Source: Candidatus Poribacteria bacterium
GTDB lineage: Bacteria > Poribacteria > WGA-4E > WGA-3G
Reading direction: 5' to 3'
Length of the DNA stretch: 64,000 bases
NCBI GenBank assembly: GCA_003635315.1
Contig: PYJD01000010.1
Coordinates: forward strand, 248,001-312,000
Positions 30,651-36,256 of this stretch are shown in pieces. A program made the position numbers and the translations under genes. Within the stretch, counting starts at the first letter, position 1; the number at the start of each line of letters is the position of its first letter. Below the pieces are notes generated by a model that saw nothing but the letters and a program-made list of their open reading frames with translations, ran no database searches and was not told where the DNA came from.

Positions 30651-31445
30651 ATGATGATAATACGTATCAGTACATTAGTGGTAGGTTTATGTTTTCTTAT
30701 TATTACCTCTACTAACGCTGCCATAGAAGCCGATACCATCATGGGTATGTGGCTATTTAATGAAGGCACTGGAAATACTGCCAAAGATTCTTCAACAAAT
30801 GGAAATGATGGAAAAATTGAGGGTGGTGTCAAATGGGTAGATGGTAAGTTTGGAAAAGCCTTAGAATTTAACGGGTCAGATGGTTGGGTTTCAGTCGCTC
30901 ATTCGGATACAGTTGGATTTACAAAAGGTACATCCTTTACAATAACTGTTTATTTTAAAGGAACGAAAGTTGCTGGGTCACTTGTAGGAAAAAACTACGA
31001 GGACACATCACAAGCATTACCGTGGTTCTTATTATGGAACGGAGGAGGAGATAACAAAGTAACCTTATATCTTCGTAATACCGCAAGCCAGAGTTTTCGA
31101 ACCGATAGTACAAGTCAGATAGGGGACGATAAGTGGCACTTCGTTGCTGGAAGAGCAGATGCAAAAGCAGGAAAAATCAGTATCTGGATAAATGGTAAAA
31201 AAGAATCAGAAGCAGATTTTGATAAGAATGATGGGTACGGAACAAGTGAAGGTGTATTGCATATAGGTCGTCACTATGATAGGTATACAAATGGTATTAT
31301 AGATGAGGTGGGACTCTTCAATACTGCTTTAGATGAAGAGGATATTAAGACAGTTATGGATAACGGACTTGAAGAAGCAGCTGCTGTTGACCCAATACAC
31401 AAATTAGCTACCACATGGGGTAGTATTAAAGATAAGATTCAATAA
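30651..31445 (+). CDS. Exported LamG/concanavalin A-like domain protein 1
   Basis: The 264-residue protein has a signal peptide (ISTLVVGLCFLIITSTNAA) and one LamG-type jelly-roll domain: IMGMWLFNEGTGNTAKDSS, GKFGKALEFNGSDGWVSV, KWHFVAGRADAKAGKISIWINGK, GIIDEVGLFNTALDEEDI. The C-terminal tail is KLATTWGSIKDKIQ. Such domains bind carbohydrates or proteins at the cell surface. It starts at ATG 30651 after a GAGAGG site, and is followed 12 nt later by a closely similar second copy. Confidence 0.88.
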   Translation: MMIIRISTLVVGLCFLIITSTNAAIEADTIMGMWLFNEGTGNTAKDSSTNGNDGKIEGGVKWVDGKFGKALEFNGSDGWVSVAHSDTVGFTKGTSFTITVYFKGTKVAGSLVGKNYEDTSQALPWFLLWNGGGDNKVTLYLRNTASQSFRTDSTSQIGDDKWHFVAGRADAKAGKISIWINGKKESEADFDKNDGYGTSEGVLHIGRHYDRYTNGIIDEVGLFNTALDEEDIKTVMDNGLEEAAAVDPIHKLATTWGSIKDKIQ

Positions 31446-31457
31446 AGGGGTTTTTTA

Positions 31458-32261
31458 ATGAGATTATATAGTGGTGTTGGTTTAATTATCGCACTTATTG
31501 CATTATTTGCTGTTCTACAACATTCAAGTTATGCAGAATTCGGTTATGATAATATCCGAGGAATGTGGTTGTTTGATGAAGGCAGTGGAGATGTTGCAAC
31601 CGATTCATCTAAGAGTGAAAACGACGGTACAATTCACGGTGCCCAATGGGTGGATGGGAAATTTGGAAAAGCACTTGAATTTGATGGTGCCGGGAATTGG
31701 GTCGAAGTTCCTCATTCAGATGCTTTAGGATTTGAAGCCGGTACATCCTTTTCATTGACAGTATACTACAAAGGTACAAGTGTCGGTGGGTCTTTGGCAG
31801 GTAAGAACTATGAAGATAGATCACAAGCCCTTCCTTGGTATATGTTCTGGAACGGTGGTGGGGACAAGAAGATAACATTCTTCCTACGAAATAGTGCTGG
31901 AACAAGTTATAGACCCCAAAGCACCAGCGATATTGCAGATGACACTTGGCATTTTATTGCGGGTGTTGCCAATGCTGATACTGGTAAAGCAAGTCTATGG
32001 GTAGATGGCAATATGGAGGCAGAACTTGATTATGATACCGATAGTGGATATGGTAATAGCGAAGGTGTCGTCCATATAGGTCGACACTTTGATAGATATA
32101 CCACTGGAATTATCGATGAAGTTGTCCTCTATGATGTTGCCCTGAGTGCGGCGGATTTAGACACCATTATGAACGATGGATTAGCTACAATTACCGCAGT
32201 TGAAGCAGCAGGTAAACTTACAACTTCCTGGGGTAGTTTAAAAAGTAAAGCAATATATTAA
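31458..32261 (+). CDS. Exported LamG/concanavalin A-like domain protein 2 (tandem paralog)
   Basis: The 267-residue protein aligns with its upstream neighbour throughout, including NIRGMWLFDEGSGDVATDSS, GKFGKALEFDGAGNWVEV, EGVVHIGRHFDRYTTGIIDEVVLYD and tail KLTTSWGSLKSKAIY. It arose by tandem duplication and keeps its own signal peptide. An AAAGGGG site precedes the ATG. It is likely co-transcribed and would share the surface-binding role. Confidence 0.88.
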   Translation: MRLYSGVGLIIALIALFAVLQHSSYAEFGYDNIRGMWLFDEGSGDVATDSSKSENDGTIHGAQWVDGKFGKALEFDGAGNWVEVPHSDALGFEAGTSFSLTVYYKGTSVGGSLAGKNYEDRSQALPWYMFWNGGGDKKITFFLRNSAGTSYRPQSTSDIADDTWHFIAGVANADTGKASLWVDGNMEAELDYDTDSGYGNSEGVVHIGRHFDRYTTGIIDEVVLYDVALSAADLDTIMNDGLATITAVEAAGKLTTSWGSLKSKAIY

Positions 32262-32389: not shown

Positions 32390-32480
32390 GAAGATTAAGT
32401 TATTCATTCGGTAATATACGGGCGGGGAAACCCCGCCCCTACGATGATTTTATGGATTGAATTACCGAAATATTTATTCA
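32390..32480. repeat. MITE-like element, copy 2, with GC hairpin
   Basis: The terminal inverted repeat TTCGGTAAT is shared with 16225-16330. The interior holds a strong hairpin GGGCGGGG-AAA-CCCCGCCC (32420-32438) and CCTACGATGATTTTAT. It lies between the LamG and selenoprotein genes and could also act as a terminator. Confidence 0.65.
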
Positions 32481-32559
32481 ATATTTATATAGTTTGTGCT
32501 ACAAGGTAGCAACTTGGGTTATATTTAATGAAGAATAATAGATTTAAAGGAACAAAATC

Positions 32560-33660
32560 ATGAAACATTTACACTTATTTCTCACATTGCCATTCTTGAT
32601 ATTGGTTGTATATGGGTGTGGATCTACTGAAGATCCAGTTGACCCAATGCCAGAAGTTGAGATTGAACCAAGTACGCTCATGGGAGAAGTAGATTCCATT
32701 GATGGTGTTACGGTTCAAGTTCGACTCCTAAAGGATGGAATCCTTGTTGCACAAGTGGAAGCAGATGGTAGTTATGCGTTTAAAGACCTTGAAGCAGGTA
32801 ATTATACAATTCAAGTCTCTGCACAAGGATATGAATCGACAGAAATAAATGCAACTCTTACTGCAGGTGAAACAAAGACATTAGATCCAGTTACACTTGA
32901 GAAATCAGCTGTTCCTGTTTCACACATAAAAGGTGTTCTAACAGATGCCGAAACTGGAGACAAATTATCCGGTGTACTTGTTCAATTAACAGATAAGTCT
33001 GGCGAAAAGCATGAAACTTTAACCACCGCTGATGGGACATTTATAATTGAAAACCTCCCTGTGGGTGAAGCATTTACAATAATGGTCTCACTTGAAGGAT
33101 ATGAGGATGGATCCGTTAATATTGATCCCATAGCAGCTAATGAAACCTATGAATTGGATGTTGTACTCACTGAAATTCCTGTAATTGAGGAATTAGATCC
33201 AGGTCAAGGTTTGAGCATTGGAAGTGAAGCACCCGTATTTGAACTTCCTGATGGTGACGGTGATTTGTTGGCACTTGAAGATCTTATTGGAAGTAAGAAG
33301 GTCGTTGTCGTATTTTATCGAGGTGGGTGGTGACCATTCTGCTTAGACCAACTCGTTGAGTTGCAAGAAAACTATGACAAGATAAAAGCTGAAGGGGCAG
33401 AAATGATCGCCATCAGTTCTGACAATCAAGCAGCAACGAAAAAATCTGTTGATAATAGAAAGTTAAAGTTTCCAGTTCTTTCTGACTCAGAAAGAGAAAC
33501 TATTGGGGCATACAATGTAATTGATCCAAACAATAAACGGATCGCACGACCATCAGGCTTTGTCATTAAATTAGATGGAACTGTTGCTTGGAAAACGCTT
33601 GGGACAACGAACCATCGTGTCCCCACTGAACAGATCCTGACAGAATTAGGAAAGCTTTAG
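32560..33660 (+). CDS. Selenocysteine-containing peroxiredoxin-like lipoprotein 1 (in-frame UGA at 33331-33333)
   Basis: A single frame from ATG 32560 runs through one UGA to a stop at 33660 and encodes 366 residues with Sec at 258. The order is lipoprotein signal LVVYGC (Cys 20), two carboxypeptidase-regulatory-like beta domains (about 38-115 and 122-205), and an AhpC/TSA peroxiredoxin domain (from about 217). The UGA lies in VVVVFYRGGW-U-PFCLDQLVELQ. Peroxiredoxin homologues of this class have FYRGGWCPFC, so Sec replaces the peroxidatic Cys and the distal Cys of C-x-x-C is retained. Sequence after the UGA is highly peroxiredoxin-like (AEGAEMIAISSDN, FPVLSD). A SECIS-like hairpin follows. 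It should reduce peroxides outside the cytoplasm. An alternative is a nonsense mutation, which the parallel neighbour makes unlikely. Confidence 0.88.
33349..33363 (+). promoter_or_regulatory. SECIS-like hairpin of selenoprotein 1
   Basis: CAACTC-GTT-GAGTTG forms a 6-bp stem with a 3-nt loop whose first base is G. The loop begins 21 nt after the UGA, within the spacing accepted for bacterial SECIS elements. The same hairpin occurs at the same distance after the UGA of selenoprotein 2. Confidence 0.75.
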
Positions 33661-34004: not shown

Positions 34005-34031
34005 ATGAAAATTTGGAATAGGTGGAATACA

Positions 34032-34904
34032 TTGAAACAATTATACATCTTCTTAGTGATCATAGCAGTCTGGTCGGCAATCTTAGGTTGTAGTACCACA
34101 GACAATTCTTTAGATGTTGTAACTGGAACTGACACTTCATCAGGCACGATTCAAGGAGAAGTGCAGCAGATTGATGGTGTTCCGATTCAAGTTATACTTT
34201 CGATAGATGGGAAAATAATCAGACAGACTGTTGCAGAAGGTAGTTACGAATTCACAGATCTTGAACCAGGTAATTACAAGATACAGTTTGATGCTAACGG
34301 GTATGATCATTTTGAAATAGATGTTAAGGTATCCATAGGTGTAATTGTTTCTTTAGAAAAAATTACACTTACAAAACAGACTCTTCCGGAAGTTGAAGAA
34401 CTTGATCTCCCACCACAATCAACCGAATTACCTCCAGGTGAAGGTCTAAAAATTGGTGCAGTTGCGCCAGATTTTGAATTACCGGATGGGAACGGTGACC
34501 TATATACCTTATCAGATTATATTGGCGAAGACAAAAAGGTAGTGCTCGTATTCTATCGCACGGGTGGCTGAGGGGCTTGCATTAATCAACTCGTTGAGTT
34601 GCAACAAAACTATGGTGAGATAAAAGCTGAAGGGGCAGAGTTAATTGCAATCAGTGTTGAGAGTATCGGATTAACAAAACGTACAACTGACAATAATAGT
34701 CTGACATATATCGTTTTATCCGATGGTAAAAGGGTAGCAACCGCACTATACAACGTTTTTGAGCAACCGCACAACCAGATTTCACGAGCAGCCACGTTTA
34801 TCATTGATTCAGATGGTACAATCGCTTGGAAATCTTTGGACAACCAATTTGGCAGAGTGCCAACCGCGACTACATTGGTAGAATTGAAGAAACTTAATGA
34901 ATAA
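34032..34904 (+). CDS. Selenocysteine-containing peroxiredoxin-like lipoprotein 2 (in-frame UGA at 34569-34571)
   Basis: The frame reads through one UGA to a stop at 34904. I prefer a TTG start at 34032 preceded by AGGTGG at 6 nt, because it aligns with the N-terminus of paralog 1; ATG 34005 is the alternative. The layout is lipobox AILGC, one carboxypeptidase-regulatory-like domain, then an AhpC/TSA domain. The UGA lies in VVLVFYRTGG-U-GACINQLVELQ, giving a U-x-x-C motif at the peroxidatic position. Downstream sequence (AEGAELIAISVES, YIVLSDGKRVATALYNV, FIIDSDGTIAWKSL) is intact and peroxiredoxin-like. The SECIS-like hairpin is identical to that of paralog 1. Its last codons overlap the ATG of the DUF362 gene. 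Confidence 0.87.
34587..34601 (+). promoter_or_regulatory. SECIS-like hairpin of selenoprotein 2
   Basis: CAACTC-GTT-GAGTTG, identical to the copy at 33349-33363, with its loop G again 21 nt after the UGA. The surrounding bases differ more between the two genes than this hairpin does. Confidence 0.75.
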
Positions 34905-36009
34905 GAATGACAAAGTATTAAACAATATTCTTTCTGACAGTGAAGAAACAGAAGAGCAGAGCGATAGGTTCAACCGACGTCAATTCCTTGGTCAGATCGG
35001 TGCGCTTAGTACTGCAGCTCTAACGACGTTTCCAGCCTTCGGACAAATTGGGGGTAGAGTTTTAAGCGATCCTGTACAAAAGGAGACATTACCACCTGTC
35101 GCTGAAGTCATAGGTAAATCCGTTTGGGAGAACGACACACTTAATGAAGATGTTGTCGGATCTATGATTGACAACGCTATGATGAAACTGACTGGTCGTG
35201 AAACCGCTAAAGAAGCATGGCGTGATTTTGTTCTACCGGATGCAATTGTTGGCATTAAAATCAACCCACTTGCCGGACCAAAACTAAGCACACACTCTAT
35301 AATTGTGGATAAAATCATTGAGGGTTTATTTACTGCTGGTGTTCTAAGAAAACAAATTATCATCTGGGATCGGTTTGAAGCACATCTTCTAAATGCGGGT
35401 TATCCAATTAAGACAGAAGAAGGTGACGTACGTACGCTTGCATCCGATTTAGATGATATTGGGTATAATGATGAAGTTTTCTATGAAACTGAGAAAGATA
35501 GTATTGCCAGACGAGAGAATGAAAGTACTCGATCAAGATATTCGCGTATTCTCACCGATATTGTGGATGTCGTAATTAATGTACCTGTCTTAAAACAACA
35601 CGATATGGCTGGTGTCAGTGGATGTTTAAAGAACATGGCTTTTGGAAGTGTTGATAATACCAAAAGGTTCCATGGTAAACCGTTATATTGTAATCCTGCT
35701 ATCGGTGAGATCTTTGAAAATAAGGTCATCAAAGATAAAGTTGTACTAAATATCGTTGACGGTCTGGTGGCATCCTATGACCGTGGACCCGAATACCACG
35801 AGGAAAGTACATGGAATTATGGCGTAATGTTTGTTGGTCCTGACCCCGTTATCCTTGATACATTAATCCTTCAAACAGTAAACCAAAAACGGGAAGAAAT
35901 AGGATTAGATTCTATGTCAAGATTTGCTAACCATATTTCTTCAGCTGCAGGTTTAGAATTGGGTATGAATTCACTTGATCAGGTAAATCTACTTAAAATT
36001 GAGGTATAG
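34897..36009 (+). CDS. Tat-exported DUF362 domain protein
   Basis: The 370-residue protein has a twin-arginine signal (FNRRQFLGQIGALSTAALTTFPAFG) and a DUF362 domain: VGIKINPLAGPKLSTHSIIVDKII, IIIWDRFEAHLLNAGY, TDIVDVVINVPVLKQHDMAGVSGCLKNMAFGSV, VVLNIVDGLVASYDRGPEY, GPDPVILDTLIL. DUF362 proteins are often linked to Fe-S or redox proteins, but their activity is not established. It overlaps the upstream selenoprotein gene by 8 nt (ATGAATAA) and the next lipoprotein gene follows at once. The three form a unit in which a folded, cofactor-bearing protein is exported alongside a lipid-anchored peroxidase. Confidence 0.85.
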   Translation: MNKNDKVLNNILSDSEETEEQSDRFNRRQFLGQIGALSTAALTTFPAFGQIGGRVLSDPVQKETLPPVAEVIGKSVWENDTLNEDVVGSMIDNAMMKLTGRETAKEAWRDFVLPDAIVGIKINPLAGPKLSTHSIIVDKIIEGLFTAGVLRKQIIIWDRFEAHLLNAGYPIKTEEGDVRTLASDLDDIGYNDEVFYETEKDSIARRENESTRSRYSRILTDIVDVVINVPVLKQHDMAGVSGCLKNMAFGSVDNTKRFHGKPLYCNPAIGEIFENKVIKDKVVLNIVDGLVASYDRGPEYHEESTWNYGVMFVGPDPVILDTLILQTVNQKREEIGLDSMSRFANHISSAAGLELGMNSLDQVNLLKIEV

Positions 36010-36013
36010 ACTC

Positions 36014-36256
36014 GTGAAAATAAGAACTATCACAATACTCTTGTTATTAGGTATGTTTTTGTTAGTAGGTTTACTTTCAGGATGTTCAATCACATTCACA
36101 TCAAGCGATGCCCTTCAATTTAACATAACCAAGCCATCTGAAAATGCAGTCTCTCTTATATCTGAATTTGAAGCGGGTGAATCAGAATCTAATGCAGGTG
36201 ATGCGACCCAACAGTCTGGGAGTGTATGTACTGGTGGGGCATGTATAATTTACTAA
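36014..36256 (+). CDS. Small lipoprotein ending in CxxxxC
   Basis: A GTG at 36014 after GAGG gives about 80 residues; an upstream ATG at 35999 overlaps DUF362 and lacks a ribosome site. A signal LLVGLLSGC is followed by a short Ser/Glu-rich segment and ends SVCTGGACIIY. The family is not recognised. Its position as the last gene of the selenoprotein-DUF362 unit and its terminal cysteine pair suggest a thiol partner or a metal site; both are speculation. It converges tail to tail with the WD40 fragment. Confidence 0.65.
   Translation: MKIRTITILLLLGMFLLVGLLSGCSITFTSSDALQFNITKPSENAVSLISEFEAGESESNAGDATQQSGSVCTGGACIIY

Follow-up and report, generated by a model that had tools for sequence, protein, structure and literature searches.

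Predicted selenocysteine-containing redoxins with export signals and carboxypeptidase-regulatory-like domains in Candidatus Poribacteria

Does the lone UGA inside a redoxin gene of Candidatus Poribacteria end the protein or encode selenocysteine (Sec), and, if it encodes Sec, which active-site position does that residue occupy? The gene (gene 1) lies in the window, the whole 64,000-nucleotide stretch of DNA that we analysed, and its frame is open apart from a single TGA, in the active-site context FYRGGW-U258-PFC261 (Table 1). An RBS-like AAAGGA (32546-32551) stands shortly 5' of the ATG. The first-pass annotation had the frame coordinates and the single UGA correct. Its reading of the product as two carboxypeptidase-regulatory-like domains followed by an AhpC/TSA domain was borne out by the Pfam search, in which PF00578 scored 105.4 bits (cut-off 26; Redoxin also matched) and PF13620 matched two stretches at 88 bits (cut-off 32.3). 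AlphaFold2 modelling of the redoxin region (33211-33657) gave a mean pLDDT of 92.9. A paralogue that is organised alike (gene 2) adjoins gene 1 downstream: the two redoxin domains are 53% identical, PF00578 is matched at 98 bits against the cut-off of 26, and the carboxypeptidase-regulatory-like match, at 29.5 bits, falls slightly under the PF13620 cut-off of 32.3. Gene 2 and the conserved genes downstream of it were absent from the first-pass annotation. We consider it highly probable (roughly 0.9), from sequence comparison, that genes 1 and 2 genuinely encode selenoproteins, with Sec inserted into a UxxC redoxin. An Rfam gathering search of the 64-kb window returned no match; a strong inverted repeat, gggcggggaaaccccgccc (32418-32440), sits in the gap that separates gene 1 from the LamG gene and may represent a terminator or else a dispersed repeat.

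Table 1. Features of the Sec-redoxin locus, in window coordinates.
Feature	Position	Strand	Details
Two tandem LamG/concanavalin-like exported proteins	30651-31445, 31458-32261	+	upstream end of the conserved gene order
Gene 1, Sec-containing redoxin	32560..33660	+	366 aa with UGA read as Sec
Signal peptide, putative lipidation Cys20 (LVVYGC)	32560..32619	+	sequence and homologue N-termini
First carboxypeptidase-regulatory-like / SdrD_B-type beta-sandwich domain	32692..32862	+	residues 45-101, Pfam search
Second CarboxypepD_reg domain, PF13620	32926..33171	+	residues 123-204, Pfam search
AhpC-TSA redoxin domain, PF00578	33217..33591	+	residues 220-344, Pfam E 2.4e-30
UGA, predicted Sec258, first residue of UxxC	33331..33333	+	readthrough frame and homologue columns
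Cys261, second residue of UxxC	33340..33342	+	aligns with peroxidatic Cys of peroxiredoxins; kept in 146/146 frames
bSECIS hairpin of gene 1, CAACTC-GTT-GAGTTG	33349..33363	+	loop G at 33355; folding and comparative tests
Gene 2, tandem Sec-redoxin paralogue	34005..34904	+	299 aa; N-terminus resembles that of a lipoprotein (ILGC); a single regulatory-like domain
UGA, predicted Sec of gene 2	34569..34571	+	context FYRTGG-U-GAC
bSECIS hairpin of gene 2	34587..34601	+	15 nt identical to gene 1
Exported DUF362 protein, PF04015	34897..36009	+	Tat-type signal RRQFLGQ; start overlaps gene 2 end
85-aa lipoprotein, LSGC lipobox	35999..36256	+	ends GSVCTGGACIIY; in neither Pfam nor NCBIfam families

We searched the host genome (4.33 Mb in 50 contigs; completeness 90%) for the Sec machinery, a check that the first-pass annotation had proposed, and found all four components: selA (518 bits), selB (368 bits), selD (365 bits; C37:19883-20809) and a tRNA-Sec gene (76.5 bits, anticodon tca, i.e. 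UCA) about 40 nt from selB. A tRNA scan of the window alone found none, the tRNA-Sec gene being on another contig. The selD gene is itself a candidate selenoprotein gene, with an in-frame TGA in CAG-U-AS. Across relatives, a search for SelA succeeded in 68 of the 79 genomes with the redoxin gene; the other 11 are for the most part incomplete or fragmented. This complete Sec trait, together with the tRNA-Sec, makes it very improbable that the UGA is decoded without Sec, as a reassigned codon or another amino acid. The same low likelihood applies to a short protein followed by a separately started C-terminal piece: a possible TTG start does occur at 33361 in the downstream frame, but between it and the UGA lie the conserved Cys and the larger part of the hairpin described below. 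Stop reassignment was rejected on the presence of tRNA-Sec and on two relatives of the small lipoprotein (L127, L131) that end in TGA; it is countered also by the other in-frame TGAs of the window with long open flanks, which lie at no recognisable catalytic position.

The domain is present in 79 of the 118 related genomes searched and, among the matches listed, each has exactly one stop, which is always TGA. Reading the Sec column residue by residue, as the first-pass annotation had proposed, we found U in 145 of 146 distinct frames and Cys in one, from Myxococcota, so the stops at this site are not random. Cys stands at +3 in 146/146 frames and UxxC in all Sec members, partly by construction because the pattern that collected the frames demanded this Cys; a further alignment likewise contained no relative without UxxC. 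Members occur in Poribacteria, Chloroflexota (SAR202/Dehalococcoidia) and soil Acidobacteria; some of the bacteria that have them live with sponges and others do not. Among named relatives the nearest all belong to Candidatus Poribacteria, with 89% identity in isolate SB0202. In a FastTree phylogeny the Chloroflexota sequences group together and the Acidobacteria ones fall among deep Poribacteria sequences, a branching order that is provisional because supports range from 0.76 to 1.0. Three Sec-redoxin genes in succession were seen in SAR202/Dehalococcoidia genomes (L161, L162, L163, L177).

Selection was gauged against the nearest relative of each gene: dN/dS was 0.045 before and 0.065 after the UGA in gene 1, and 0.141 before and 0.098 after it in gene 2. 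The low values past the UGA indicate that the downstream part is selected as protein. A nonsense mutation, a sequencing error or a decaying pseudogene would agree with the standard annotation, which stops gene 1 at 33333. Against this stand the identical UGA codon in independent genomes of three phyla (never TAA or TAG among the matches listed), a dN/dS of 0.05-0.15 past the stop and the same UGA in the adjacent gene 2. The recurrence of the UGA in one column, in 79 genomes and 145/146 frames, is explained neither by chance nor by sequencing error, and on this conservation and the dN/dS values we rejected the pseudogene and error readings, whose remaining likelihood is negligible.

A SECIS-like hairpin at suitable spacing had also been claimed from the sequence. 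In gene 1 a 6-bp stem with the 3-nt loop GUU begins 15 nt after the UGA, with its loop at 21 nt, and lies within the bacterial SECIS (bSECIS) geometry, which has a stem of 4-16 bp, a loop of 3-9 nt with G within its first two positions, and a distance of 16-37 nt from the UGA (PMC13188914). The sequence CARCTC-(G/A)NN-GAGYTG, or one close to it, is present in every member, with a stem of 6 bp (7 in most) and a 3-nt loop, almost always G-first, 21 nt from the UGA. The published cut-off for the minimum free energy (MFE), at most -7.5 kcal/mol (PMC13188914), is missed by gene 1 (-5.0 to -5.5 kcal/mol, not better than shuffles) and by gene 2 (-5.6 to -7.4 kcal/mol), whereas the hairpins of those relatives that were folded lie at -7.5 to -13.8 kcal/mol. 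Since single-sequence folding is not significant for either window gene, the comparative test alone is informative.

This comparative test revealed constraint at both codon and pairing level. Within the hairpin, Leu is invariably encoded by CTC and Glu by GAG in 84 sequences, but codons for the same two amino acids vary freely elsewhere in the redoxin domain. Changes are compensatory, CAA occurring with TTG and CAG with CTG; the variable stem pair is A-T in 81, G-C in 21, G-T in 5 and A-C in 0 of 107 sequences. Among 36 distinct sequences, 96.0% of cells are paired and 13 cells are changed on both sides; the covariation score of 0.148 was reached in 0 of 500 shuffles, a control that leaves kinship in place, and structures slid along the alignment scored at most 0.070. 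Random synonymous recoding retained the stem in 0-2.6% of trials, and the combined hairpin pattern occurs three times in the whole 4.3-Mb genome, each time in the Sec-redoxin family. The proposed hairpin thus holds in its spacing, conservation and covariation, but the folding energy of the gene 1 copy by itself (-5.0 kcal/mol) is unremarkable against shuffles. Together with the complete Sec machinery, the conserved UGA and purifying selection after it, the hairpin upholds the original selenoprotein claim. Aided by this element, SelB would deliver Sec-tRNA(UCA) at the in-frame UGA.

The stated position of the Sec needs correction. The UGA was said to fall exactly where homologues have the peroxidatic Cys, and the alignments do not agree. 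Profile alignment to a solved peroxiredoxin (2cx3) pairs fyrggl-C-pl-C with ffpaaf-S-pv-C, and alignment to AhpE of M. tuberculosis (1xxu) pairs the motif with ...ft-gi-C, the aligned Cys of which is the peroxidatic one. The UGA column therefore corresponds to the Thr/Ser of PxxxT/SxxC and Cys261 to the peroxidatic column. In the alignment with ResA, of the ResA/TlpA type, the UGA is matched to the first of the two CxxC cysteines, so the wording "catalytic position" is supported and the peroxidatic placement is not. The canonical peroxiredoxin active site is absent from the family, its Pro, Thr/Ser and Arg columns holding R, U and mostly P: Arg fills the Pro column in 140/146 frames, and Pro is the commonest residue in the Arg column (92 of the 122 frames matched by the pattern), where it resembles the cis-Pro loop of ResA. 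This cis-Pro-like residue is A or G in some members, and Ala in gene 2. Structural matches of the AlphaFold2 model come from both classes, the peroxiredoxins Bcp4 (3hjp) and AhpE, with TM up to 0.91, and ResA (4nmu). The corrected Sec position bears on the choice of assay.

By PF00578 scores over the cut-off and by the UxxC motif, we class genes 1 and 2 as Prx-like UxxC thiol:disulfide oxidoreductase selenoproteins. This catalytic kind (PF00578, UxxC/UxxU) is already known (PMC13188914, PMC9312934) and is listed apart from the Sec-peroxiredoxins with TxxU (PMC13188914; PMC1088965, as the Prx-like UXXC family). The window genes share with it the AhpC/TSA domain, Sec as first residue of UxxC and a bSECIS shortly downstream; they differ in the secretion/lipidation signal, the carboxypeptidase-regulatory-like domains, the 1-3 tandem copies, Sec in nearly all members and a conserved cluster with DUF362 and small-lipoprotein genes. 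PrxU of the Eubacterium acidaminophilum type likewise has an AhpC/TSA fold and an active-site Sec, but Sec-peroxiredoxins read PxxxTxxU and the genes here RxxxUxxC; its model NF040737 gave 26.7 and 37.3 bits for the two redoxins (cut-off 270). ResA/TlpA/StoA proteins are also anchored extracytoplasmic redoxins, with CxxC at the same position, a Pro before the last strands and the 4nmu structural match; unlike them, the window proteins would have Sec for the first Cys, and they carry additional beta-sandwich domains. The ResA subfamily model scored 65.2 bits against a cut-off of 170. SelL-related redox proteins (NF040769), which are relatives among the Prx-like selenoproteins, are weakly similar (44.6 bits, cut-off 120). 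Neither the two redoxins nor the DUF362 protein nor the small lipoprotein scored above the cut-off of any NCBIfam family.

What would such an active site do? Most likely, as judged from these motifs, the proteins act as thiol:disulfide oxidoreductases or in a peroxide-reducing relay with a catalytic selenol. The specific chemistry that is reasonably, if not strongly, favoured is that of a selenol/thiol oxidoreductase acting outside the cytoplasm: Sec258, at the site that the first Cys occupies in ResA/TlpA, would attack the substrate, and Cys261 would resolve the adduct as a selenenylsulfide. Re-reduction might be carried out by a carrier of the DsbD type, a protein of which is present in the host genome. 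In glutathione peroxidase (GPx), Sec occupies the equivalent first position. This parallel, the many peroxiredoxins among the fold matches and an apparently exported double-domain Sec protein of the same genome (L028), whose first domain has the canonical PxxxTxxU, favour a protein that is first of all a peroxidase, peroxiredoxin- or GPx-like, with a peroxidatic Sec and Cys261 resolving, that removes peroxides coming from the sponge host. We hold this possible at well under even odds: the Pro, Thr and Arg of peroxiredoxins are all replaced in the family, reviews class UxxC proteins as thiol:disulfide oxidoreductases (PMC13188914), and the constant company of a DUF362 protein and a dithiol lipoprotein points to a dedicated substrate.

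The oxidoreductase would probably work outside the cytoplasmic membrane, held there by its N-terminal signal/lipidation sequence together with the carboxypeptidase-regulatory-like beta-sandwich domains, of which there are one or two. Nearly all complete members start with a signal-like hydrophobic stretch that ends in Cys. Tested against the pattern [LVI][ASTVI][GAS]C, the lipobox is non-canonical in gene 1 (VYGC) and in many relatives (GLNC), whereas L024 (ITGC), the Chloroflexota sequences and some further members conform to it. For this reason export of the gene 1 protein is predicted as likely and its lipidation, which is less certain, as probable only. The lipid anchor named in the first-pass annotation is accordingly retained as a probable membrane anchor with its Cys kept, qualified by the non-canonical VYGC. 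The signal-peptide coding region of one Sec-redoxin gene contains a perfect 39-bp tandem repeat (L059:683-794), and similar repeated ...LANRKLAIQ... peptides precede the hydrophobic stretch in L042, L048-L050, L055, L056 and L125.

The order LamG, one to three Sec-redoxins, DUF362 and small lipoprotein is found in 42 of 55 Poribacteria loci, and in 43/50 the DUF362 start overlaps the stop of the Sec-redoxin immediately before it. Next to the Chloroflexota and Acidobacteria members we did not find the cluster of LamG, DUF362 and small lipoprotein. Both C-terminal Cys of the small lipoprotein are invariant in 45/45 homologues, mostly as CxGGxC-(I/L)(I/V)Y (CTDGQC in 2/45). Judged by sequence and by the order of the genes, the likeliest substrate or electron partner would be the exported DUF362 protein or the CxGGxC lipoprotein, both of them conserved and translationally coupled, an assignment to either that we make tentatively, at a little less than even confidence. 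DUF362, a domain of unknown function, thereby gains a testable redox partner, and a small dithiol lipoprotein that belongs to no known family is identified.

The architecture of lipoprotein signal, carboxypeptidase-regulatory-like domains and Sec-redoxin appears to be unreported. In the literature searched, outside which most subscription journals lie, we found no match to the membrane-anchored fusion, in line with the earlier remark that it is not a standard form, nor to the tandem genes, near-exclusive Sec and conserved cluster. The same search yielded no paper on a Poribacteria selenoprotein peroxiredoxin, Poribacteria DUF362, sponge-symbiont selenoproteins or carboxypeptidase regulatory-like selenoproteins. 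Conceivably, though we would not put it at even chances, the Sec-redoxins, the Tat-exported DUF362 protein and the CxGGxC lipoprotein form a dedicated, undescribed selenium-dependent surface redox system of Poribacteria. In the portion of a sponge metagenome study considered here (PMC5649159), SelA and SelB are reported from most symbiont bins, of several phyla, and not from most close relatives; no client protein for them is named in that portion. The Sec-redoxin family is a candidate client, and further phyla associated with sponges have Sec-redoxin families related to it. A dedicated selenium redox system, if real, could help explain the enrichment of Sec genes in sponge symbionts. Annotation with UGA as a stop would split this large, exported and probably lipid-anchored selenoprotein family in two.

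Further in-frame UGAs were seen in redoxin frames of the host genome. The apparently exported protein L028 (also L035; C31:66131-66988, minus strand) has two tandem peroxiredoxin domains and two in-frame UGAs, both at the peroxidatic position (FYPKDFTGG-U and FYPRDFGRS-U), and is a candidate double-Sec peroxiredoxin. Two AhpC/TSA-type frames each hold one in-frame UGA: FFRGTW-U-PNS, a UxxS motif, in L025 (C42:51286), and LLLQTY-U-PVC, a UxxC motif, in L029 (C34:116999, minus strand).
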